DNA from: Streptomyces sp. NWU339
GTDB lineage: Bacteria > Actinomycetota > Actinomycetes > Streptomycetales > Streptomycetaceae
Direction of reading: 5' to 3'
DNA length: 64,000 nt
Assembly (NCBI RefSeq): GCF_003143855.1
Contig: NZ_QFRK01000018.1
Span: forward strand, 62,001 to 126,000
The stretch's first letter is position 1, and each line of letters starts with the position of its first letter. Under the pieces are notes generated by a model that was not told the origin of the DNA, made no database searches, and saw only the letters and a program-made list of their open reading frames with translations. Of the stretch, positions 8,008-10,173 are shown in pieces. The translations under genes were made by a program, and so were the position numbers.

Positions 8008-10173
8008 TCAGCCCTGTACGGCCAGCACCAGGGGCAGCACCCCCTCGGCGCCGGCCCGCCGGAGCAGGCGTGCCGTGACCGCGAGGGTCCAGCCCGTCTC
8101 CGTGTAGTCGTCCACCAGAAGCACCGGCCCCCCGGCCTCGGCGAGGGCCGTGGCGAGAGAGGAAGGGACGGCCAGCGCCCCGTCGAGGGCCTTCAGACGC
8201 TGTGCGCTGTTGCTCCGGGACGCCGGCCGGGCCTCGTCCGTGTACTGCACGGAACCCAGCAGGGGCAGGCGTCCTACCTCCGCGATGTGCGCTCCCAGCG
8301 AGTGGATCAGGGCGGGGCGGGTGCGGGAGGGGAGGGTGACCACACCGACCGGCCGGGGCTGGGCGTCCGGCGCTCCCGACACCCAGCCGCCGGGCCCCTT
8401 GGCCCAGTCGGCCAGTACATCCACCACGGCCTTCGCCACGTCGTCGGGCACGGGCCCGTCCGGGGCCTGGGGCGCGAACACCGGACGCAGCCGGTTGCCC
8501 CAGCCGATGTCCGACAGGCGTCCCAACGCCCGGCCCTGAGCGCTCTGTTCCCCGGCCGGGATGCGCCCCTTGAGGTCCATGCCGATCGCCGGAAGCCCGG
8601 TGGGCCACATGCGCCGCGGTTCCACCTCCACTCCCGCCCGGCCGAGATCCACGCGGGCCGCCTCGAGCGCCGTGGGAGAGGCTTCGGGGATGTAGCGCGC
8701 GCCCGCGCAGTTGTCGCAGCGGCCGCAGGGTTTCGCGCCCACGTCGTCCAACTGGCGCTGCAGGAACTCCATCCGGCAGTCCGCGGTCGTCGCGTACTCG
8801 CGCATTGCCTGCTGTTCGGCTCCCCGCTGGCGGGCCACCCACGCGTACCGCTCGGCGTCGTACGTCCATGGCTGACCGGTCGCGATCCAGCCCCCCTTGA
8901 CCCGTCGCACCGCCCCGTCCACGTCGAGGACCTTGAGCATGGTCTCCAGCCGGGAGCGGCGCAGCTCGACCAGGGGTTCGAGGGCGGGCAACGACATGGG
9001 CCGGTCCGCGTGGGCGAGGACGTCGATTGTGCGGCGCACCAGTTCCTCCGAGGGGAAGGCGAGGGACGCGAAGTACGTCCAGATCGCCTCGTCCTCCTTG
9101 CCCGGAAGGAGCAGGACTTCGGCATGGCGCACACCACGGCCGGCGCGGCCGACCTGCTGGTAGTAGGAGATGGGAGAGGACGGTGAGCCGAGGTGGACCA
9201 CGAATCCCAGGTCCGGCTTGTCGAAGCCCATACCGAGGGCGGAGGTGGCGACCAGGGCCTTCACCTTGTTGGCGAGCAGGTCCTCCTCCGACTGTTGCCG
9301 TTCCGCGTTCTCCGTCTTGCCGGTGTACGAGGCGACGGTGTGGCCGCGCTGCCGCAGGAAGGCGGTCACCTCCTCGGCGGCTGCCACGGTGAGGGTGTAG
9401 ACGATGCCGGAGCCCGGCAGTTCGTCGAGGTGATCGGCGAGCCAGGCCATCCGGTGCGCGGCGTCCGGCAGGCGCAGCACACTCAGGCTCAGGCTCTCCC
9501 GGTCCAGCGGACCCCGCAGCACCAGGGCGTCCGAGGCGCCTCCCGTGCCGAGTTGCTCCGCGACGTCGGCGGTCACCCGGGCGTTGGCGGTGGCGGTGGT
9601 GGCCAGGACGGGCACGCCGGGCGGGAGATCGGCGAGCATGGTGCGCAGCCGGCGGTAGTCGGGGCGGAAGTCGTGGCCCCAGTCGGAGATGCAGTGCGCC
9701 TCGTCCACCACGAGGAGTCCGGTCGCGGCGGAGAGTTCGGGCAGTACGTGATCACGGAAGTCGGGGTTGTTCAGCCGCTCCGGACTCACCAGCAGGACAT
9801 CTACCGCGCCCGCGGCGATCTCGGTCTGGATGGTGTCCCATTCCTCGCTGTTGGAGGAGTTGATGGTGCGGGCGTGGATACCGGCTCTGGCCGCGGCCTC
9901 GACCTGGTTGCGCATCAGCGCCAGGAGGGGGGAGACGATCACTGTGGGACCGCTGCCCCGGGCCCGCAGCAGAGATGTGGCCACGAAGTAGACCGCGGAC
10001 TTGCCCCAGCCCGTGCGCTGGACGACCAGGGCCCGGCGCTTGTCGGCGACCAGCGCCTCGATCGCTCGCCACTGGTCCTCGCGCAGCCGGGCCTCTCCCG
10101 AGGCGTCCCCGACGAGCCGGGCGAGGACGGCGTCCGCCGCCGTCCGGAGATCCGCGTTGTTCGTGTGCTCCAT
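8008..10173 (-). CDS. RecQ-type DNA helicase with C-terminal phosphoribosyltransferase-like domain
   Basis: About 721 residues; ATGs at 10197, 10182 and 10173 are all possible and none has a strong ribosome site, so the start is uncertain. The N-terminal two thirds is an SF2 RecQ helicase: LREDQWRAIEAL, Walker A TGWGKSAVY, DEAH box, TTATAN, and motif VI QQVGRAGR. A zinc cluster follows with Cys residues in CRMEF and PCGRCDNC. Instead of an HRDC domain, the last about 200 residues contain VLLVDDYTETGWT, the PRPP-binding signature of phosphoribosyltransferases (ComF/orotate type). I have seen this fusion in other actinomycetes, but its purpose is unclear; it could bind a nucleotide as a sensor or salvage bases released at repair sites (inference). 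A flanking region of 161 bp is shared with the divergent DUF4192 gene. Confidence 0.92.
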   Translation of the reverse strand: MEHTNNADLRTAADAVLARLVGDASGEARLREDQWRAIEALVADKRRALVVQRTGWGKSAVYFVATSLLRARGSGPTVIVSPLLALMRNQVEAAARAGIHARTINSSNSEEWDTIQTEIAAGAVDVLLVSPERLNNPDFRDHVLPELSAATGLLVVDEAHCISDWGHDFRPDYRRLRTMLADLPPGVPVLATTATANARVTADVAEQLGTGGASDALVLRGPLDRESLSLSVLRLPDAAHRMAWLADHLDELPGSGIVYTLTVAAAEEVTAFLRQRGHTVASYTGKTENAERQQSEEDLLANKVKALVATSALGMGFDKPDLGFVVHLGSPSSPISYYQQVGRAGRGVRHAEVLLLPGKEDEAIWTYFASLAFPSEELVRRTIDVLAHADRPMSLPALEPLVELRRSRLETMLKVLDVDGAVRRVKGGWIATGQPWTYDAERYAWVARQRGAEQQAMREYATTADCRMEFLQRQLDDVGAKPCGRCDNCAGARYIPEASPTALEAARVDLGRAGVEVEPRRMWPTGLPAIGMDLKGRIPAGEQSAQGRALGRLSDIGWGNRLRPVFAPQAPDGPVPDDVAKAVVDVLADWAKGPGGWVSGAPDAQPRPVGVVTLPSRTRPALIHSLGAHIAEVGRLPLLGSVQYTDEARPASRSNSAQRLKALDGALAVPSSLATALAEAGGPVLLVDDYTETGWTLAVTARLLRRAGAEGVLPLVLAVQG

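Follow-up and report, generated by a model that had tools for sequence, protein, structure and literature searches.

The window analyzed here, a 64,000-nucleotide stretch of a contig from Streptomyces sp. NWU339, carries on its minus strand a single uninterrupted open reading frame that runs from an ATG at position 10173 to a stop at position 8008 and encodes 721 residues (Table 1). The product is RqlH, also called PsyrT, a RecQ-like helicase fused to a phosphoribosyltransferase (PRT)-like domain; the fusion has already been described and is not new, RqlH of Mycobacterium smegmatis having reportedly been described by Ordonez et al. in 2012. Pfam recognizes the helicase part through DEAD (residues 32 to 201, E = 7.5e-23) and Helicase_C (residues 250 to 346, E = 7.5e-18), and the NCBIfam recQ_fam model is passed at 231.5 against a cutoff of 219.8. 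Farther along, RecQ_Zn_bind scores 24.5 bits at residues 452 to 489, just below its cutoff of 25, and Pribosyltran matches weakly at residues 679 to 712 (E = 0.0024; 17.6 bits against a cutoff of 26.3).

Table 1. Features of the rqlH locus, in window coordinates
Feature	Coordinates	Strand	Basis
rqlH gene, RecQ-like helicase with C-terminal PRT-like domain (721 aa)	8008..10173	-	ORF, Pfam, PADLOC PsyrT match
RecA-like domain 1, residues 26-210, motifs QRTGWGKS and DEAHCISDWG	9544..10098	-	Pfam, alignment, model
RecA-like domain 2, residues 211-370	9064..9543	-	Pfam, model
Winged-helix-like element (putative), residues 376-431, between RecA-like domain 2 and zinc module	8881..9048	-	secondary structure of model
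Platform helix and four-cysteine zinc module, residues 440-490 (Cys 466, 483, 486, 489)	8704..8856	-	Pfam, alignment, model
PRT-like domain, ComF(C)-like, residues 607-719	8017..8355	-	profile search, model, Foldseek, VIA
Flexible loop, residues 642-665	8179..8250	-	alignment; position set by comparison with ComFC as described in the available text of PMC9005727
PRPP-type loop, VLLVDDYTETGWT (residues 684-696), VLLVDDYTETGWTL (residues 684-697)	8083..8124	-	alignment
Divergent neighbor, DUF4192 protein	10311..12110	+	tblastn, Pfam
Downstream uncharacterized ORF, same strand as rqlH	7178..7750	-	ORF; no Pfam family at E 0.01

The PADLOC PsyrT model covers window residues 15 to 719 (E = 7e-213), and the protein co-aligns with RqlH of an Escherichia coli plasmid (L108), which also matches PsyrT and whose adjoining DprA-like gene matches PsyrA. 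In the part of the paper by Russell and Mulvey (2015) available to us, PsyrT and PsyrA are named as orthologues of RqlH and RqlI (PMC4670107).

The AlphaFold2 model of the full-length protein (pLDDT 91.5) and the two Pfam helicase domains bear out the RecQ core proposed in a first-pass annotation made from sequence, and all 50 Foldseek matches listed for the model are RecQ-family cores. The zinc cluster proposed with it is likewise upheld, by the RecQ_Zn_bind match, the four cysteines, and the model. Cysteines 466, 483, 486, and 489 are invariant across 60 aligned actinobacterial rows, and each is kept in 121 to 125 of 142 aligned RqlH proteins; about 20 of the 142, including the RqlH of a Sinorhizobium plasmid (L110), lack one or more of them. 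Ahead of the zinc module, the predicted secondary structure (helices at residues 376 to 387, 395 to 398, and 406 to 418; strands at 422 to 425 and 428 to 431) suggests a winged-helix-like element, over which Pfam HTH_IclR reaches only E = 0.51. Past the zinc module, the full-length model contains neither an RQC nor an HRDC domain. The PRT-like domain had been said to stand in place of HRDC; HRDC is indeed missing, but the wording was loose in that RQC is missing too. An RQC or HRDC fold lacking a PRPP pocket was looked for by structure prediction and did not appear. A second RecQ-like gene lies elsewhere in the genome (contig C111).

The weak Pribosyltran match reflects a real PRT fold, judging from profiles and models of the C terminus. 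A profile built from 26 C-terminal regions (alignment A6, 25 loci plus the window; window residues 505 to 721) retrieved PRPP synthetase (E = 1.9e-6) and HGXPRT (E = 0.0026) from the PDB sequences; ComF was absent from that search at E 1 and surfaced through structure only. The AlphaFold2 model of residues 505 to 721 alone (pLDDT 89.4) gave a sole Foldseek match below E 0.001, Thermus APRT2 (E = 7.5e-4), with Helicobacter pylori ComF at rank 36 (E = 0.05). When VIA re-aligned Foldseek's own match list, ComF came first (Z 13.4, rmsd 3.6, 171 residues), a ShosT structure with PRPP-Mg second (Z 10.4), and APRT and PurF next (Z near 9.8). The PRT-like C terminus with a PRPP-type loop that had been read from the sequence is confirmed by this model and these matches, and a chance resemblance of the loop is ruled out by the profile search together with the predicted fold.

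The consequences of such a domain have been studied in E. coli, where, according to the available text of PMC4670107, the PRT domain of RqlH acts as a genotoxin when the DprA-like RqlI is lacking. Substitutions in a DIVD stretch abolish the effects of E. coli RqlH on growth, SOS, and filamentation, while a modest loss of viable cells persists (PMC4670107, same portion); in the plasmid homologue this stretch aligns to window residues 689 to 692. The same text states that Streptomyces encodes only RqlH, without RqlI, that RqlI is likewise missing in M. smegmatis, and that the M. smegmatis protein works as an ATPase and helicase in vitro without its PRT domain. It reports no major sequence differences and leaves open how bacteria with RqlH alone escape its genotoxicity. 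Our own literature search, of limited depth, found no report linking particular residue changes to the loss of RqlI. Both the fusion and its occurrence in Streptomyces have thus been published before, and what is added here is a genus-wide survey and a contrast of pocket sites.

RqlH matches at E 1e-60 or better occur in 81 of 396 genomes of the phylum, and a near full-length fusion in 72 of the 396 (counted from the table), including 12 of 12 of the same genus; the C-terminal half of RqlH is found in all 199 sampled genomes of the genus. RqlI was found at E 1e-30 in none of the 199 sampled genus genomes (the profile's positive control came from a separate run), and the RqlI profile scored 134 to 392 bits in three control genomes and no more than 104 in a further 42, among them the genome of the window. 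Only 5 of the 60 actinobacterial loci fetched have an adjoining rqlI, two of these coming from one genome. Among the other loci, rqlI lies downstream on the same strand at 68 of the 78 having an RqlH ORF; at 8 of the 10 without it the contig ends less than 1.5 kb farther on, so that only L175 and L187 are clear cases. A set of 80 loci used here is uneven, since they are the best 80 of at least 593 matches to a single cyanobacterial, RqlI-paired RqlH.

Eleven plasmid records match over 80% or more of RqlH at a single place, including plasmids of E. coli, Acinetobacter, Nostoc, Sinorhizobium, and a haloarchaeon. The haloarchaeal protein (L111, 5965 to 8046) is near full-length, with no DprA gene annotated alongside. 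A near full-length relative was not found among phage records, none of the 20 matching records covering 80%. The RqlI of the E. coli plasmid (L108, 8088 to 9476) matches the Pfam SLOG family LDcluster4 (SLOG cluster4, 35.9 bits) besides DprA.

In a tree built on residues 20 to 460, the core RqlI-less sequences form one clade of exactly 48 actinobacterial rows (SH-aLRT 99), none of which has an adjoining RqlI/PsyrA gene. We compared pocket sites across this and other groups in an alignment of 142 rows, from which L082 (no stop codon within the stretch), L115, L116, and L144 (ORF below 600 aa), and L184 and L190 (no ORF found) had been removed; the structure alignment A4 holds 66 of the 80 loci plus the window, the 14 omitted being broken, cut, near-duplicate, or not entered, among them L193 owing to a stop codon. 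Eleven sites were scored (window numbering 610, 650, 655, 659, 662, 688, 689, 692, 693, 695, and 696), picked post hoc by conservation and not by ligand contacts in RqlH, so that the comparison is descriptive.

The 74 RqlH proteins with an adjacent rqlI keep a mean of 10.8 of the 11 sites, with all 11 kept in 63; the 8 paired actinobacterial proteins keep 11 each, and the 66 other paired proteins average 10.8 with a minimum of 9. The window protein keeps N655, D688, D689, T693, W695, and T696 and is substituted at the other five (G610, P650, R659, A662, and E692). The losses fall heavily on the flexible loop, where Q650, Q659, and N662 of the paired proteins have become P, R, and A, three of its four sites, N655 being retained. 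In the PRPP-type loop, the acidic pair D688 and D689 is present, and Trp695 is found in 142 of 142 aligned proteins. The 12 same-genus proteins keep 6 or 7 sites and the 36 other members of the 48-row clade 3 to 10; 4 members of the whole clade retain 10, and 12 of the 48 lack one Asp of the pair. GC bias as a cause of the losses is unsupported by a comparison among loci of at least 65% GC, in which 8 paired loci average 10.9 sites versus 7.5 for 58 unpaired ones (the p value disregards kinship). The loop of the paired proteins, DDxVDS, resembles a VEDIIDSG loop encoded at another site of the same genome, a lead only; the protein bearing it is presumably hypoxanthine PRTase, with a role for the third acidic residue of the loop.

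An eroded site does not always accompany RqlI loss: L077, whose genome has no RqlI-grade match, and L079 both keep 11 sites, and L080, L083, and L104, also RqlI-less, keep 10 each. An independent-pairs test of loop residues against RqlI, with 6 usable pairs, was not significant (p 0.25 to 1 for Asp688, Asp689, and Asp692 together; p 1 when only the Asp pair was considered), and with L077 and L079 it leads us to reject a tight coupling of RqlI loss to site loss. The contrast between RqlI-paired and RqlI-less pockets stems largely from one clade on the tree of residues 20 to 460. We assume that the direction of change was loss and not an origin free of RqlI, since the tree lacks an outside root.

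These residues also bear on the function first proposed for the fusion, in which a normal transferase would sense PRPP or recycle bases at repair sites. The PRT fold and PRPP loop that such a function calls for are present, but the flexible-loop residues are gone in the RqlI-less clade, and the loss of three of the four sites in the window makes base turnover less likely. The window's genome, moreover, already has 11 matches above the Pribosyltran cutoff. What the available text of PMC4670107 documents for E. coli RqlH is toxicity, not salvage, namely, a genotoxic PRT restrained by RqlI. The proposal found no support in our data, and we regard it as very improbable.

The surroundings of the gene are specific to the genus. 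The DUF4192 neighbor was found (tblastn, E 1e-8) at 11 of 11 same-genus loci and at none of 48 other actinobacterial loci and is therefore ruled out as a general RqlH partner; the downstream ORF was matched at 10 of the 11. In a named Streptomyces record (L195), RqlH is 75% identical to the window's, and seven window neighbors surround it in the same order at 61 to 83% identity by best pieces. The gene itself is flipped at 4 of the 11 same-genus loci (L054, L055, L056, and L058), where its position and flanking genes are unchanged, and the flipped order recurs in L195; because the four flipped loci form one clade (99), a single inversion suffices.

This context helps in weighing the idea that the PRT domain is fully active and potentially genotoxic and is restrained by a more distant DprA-like protein or an unrelated one. 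More distant RqlI relatives are one option suggested by Russell and Mulvey (PMC4670107, available portion), the window's genome has two DprA-family genes (contigs C26 and C122), and the Asp-Asp pair, Trp, and Thr of the PRPP loop are unbroken. Yet no RqlI-grade match came from any of the 42 RqlI-less genomes or the 199 genus genomes, the flexible loop is depleted as described, no window neighbor is conserved beside rqlH beyond the genus, and the strand of rqlH varies even inside it. A fully active domain under such restraint seems to us distinctly unlikely.

A PsyrTA or defense-island setting can also be set aside for the window gene, as the antitoxin is absent and restriction-modification (RM) and BREX queries do not match the window. 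Of the 60 actinobacterial loci, 1 was hit by any of the seven RM and BREX queries, versus 11 of the 78 other loci. Type I restriction loci with the order hsdM-hsdS-rqlH-rqlI-hsdR occur on the E. coli plasmid (L108, 2652 to 12731) and at L149 and L157, and a 4.9-kb segment of this kind, reaching from hsdS through rqlH and rqlI into the first part of hsdR, is present in 53 of 5,426 E. coli genomes. The rqlH-rqlI pair sits between the BREX genes pglX and pglZ in Acinetobacter (L109, 2441 to 14076) and Clostridium nigeriense (L192). In the part of PMC12409345 available to us, a test strain made to express a PsyrTA showed no detectable resistance to the phages it was challenged with, so a defense role is tentative.

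Divergence within the protein is distributed differently in the two kinds of RqlH. At a helicase divergence of 0.35 to 0.40, PRT divergence is 0.61 among 55 RqlI-less actinobacterial proteins versus 0.46 among 74 paired proteins, while the winged-helix and zinc region runs the opposite way (0.55 RqlI-less versus 0.62 paired). PRT minus helicase divergence reaches 0.217 within the core clade lacking RqlI (727 pairs) and 0.178 within other RqlI-less actinobacteria (37 pairs); non-actinobacterial unpaired or cut sequences give 0.144 (31 pairs), actinobacteria with a paired RqlI 0.085 (22 pairs), and other paired sequences 0.077 (1,816 pairs). Over 66 same-genus pairs, the median dN/dS is 0.13 for the helicase and 0.35 for the PRT domain, indicating that the helicase is under the stronger purifying selection of the two; a value of 0.35 is still purifying selection, and the PRT domain must therefore do something.

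It could have switched ligand and serve, in analogy with ComFC, as a sensor or a single-stranded DNA (ssDNA)-handling module that regulates the helicase. ComF(C) is the top VIA match, ComFC is described as a binder of PRPP, nucleotides, and ssDNA that acts in DNA handling (PMC9005727, available portion), the domain is still selected within the genus, and the PRPP loop is mostly retained though other loops are altered. The missing Asp in a quarter of the clade (12 of 48) weighs against it, as does the statement in the available text of PMC4670107 that helicase activity of the M. smegmatis protein in vitro does not need the PRT domain. We consider such a switch unlikely.

The reading we favor, at a probability of about 60%, is that the window's RqlH would be a stand-alone helicase in chromosome maintenance whose PRT domain survives as a remnant, weakened or serving to bind a ligand, in which genotoxic transferase activity is slight or absent, such that the antitoxin is not needed. 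From its motifs and the published M. smegmatis protein, we infer a 3'-5' translocase/helicase activity for the RecQ-like part, and throughout the 48-row clade this part is under strong constraint. The attached ComFC/ShosT-like domain has retained the PRT fold there, and the window protein also the Asp-Asp PRPP loop, while losing most of the flexible-loop residues that are near-invariant in RqlI-paired relatives. These residues may be needed for PRT catalysis; as Asp688, Asp689, Trp695, and Thr696 are intact, PRPP binding may still be possible. Because ComFC, with the same fold, binds PRPP and nucleotides in DNA handling, a loss of catalysis need not equal a loss of function. A PRT domain so attenuated, or used for binding, would have little or no genotoxic transferase activity, and its weakening or repurposing would explain life without RqlI. 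Family, fold, the missing RqlI, and which residues were lost are shown by the data; that the window protein has ceased to be toxic and does housekeeping work is what we infer.

In evolutionary terms, the toxin of a toxin-antitoxin pair may have turned into a genus-wide core gene that lacks RqlI, has kept the helicase and mostly the PRPP loop, and has surrendered the flexible loop, on which the genotoxic reaction may depend, a scenario that we hold tentatively and at somewhat less than even odds. If these readings are right, antitoxin-free RqlH proteins would be separation-of-function variants made by nature, from which the residues behind RqlH genotoxicity could be read. The pocket contrast makes the escape of RqlI-less bacteria from that genotoxicity testable by expression and domain swaps. 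It also follows that a PsyrT match in the genus Streptomyces does not signal a PsyrTA defense system.

Set against known systems, the window protein has the motor core of canonical RecQ in common with it but falls short of the recQ equivalog cutoff (278.6 versus 640.2 bits) and has no RQC or HRDC past the zinc module in the model, which together rule out a canonical RecQ identity. ShosT, which we take to be the PRT toxin of ShosTA, is the second VIA match of the C terminus, and the matched chain, at 424 residues, is shorter than the RecQ motor plus the window's PRT-like domain; the ShosA model is also matched by two RqlI proteins. The parallel of a helicase plus a PRTase with ComFA/ComFC of natural competence, ComFC being the closest VIA relative of the window C terminus, was drawn by Russell and Mulvey (PMC4670107, available portion). 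ComFA and ComFC are encoded by separate comF genes, whereas the window has one polypeptide with a RecQ motor, and a Pfam scan of five nearby window ORFs found no PRTase or helicase among them. With PsyrTA, the window shares the PsyrT model and not PsyrA/RqlI; because the latter is found neither in the window nor at RqlI grade elsewhere in the genome, the window's RqlH is not a PsyrTA system. The closest likeness is to RqlH of M. smegmatis and E. coli F11, which have the same layout of RecQ ATPase, linker, zinc module, and PRT domain. E. coli RqlH is paired with RqlI and keeps its pocket residues, whereas the window's RqlH stands without RqlI and has given up 5 of the 11 pocket sites.
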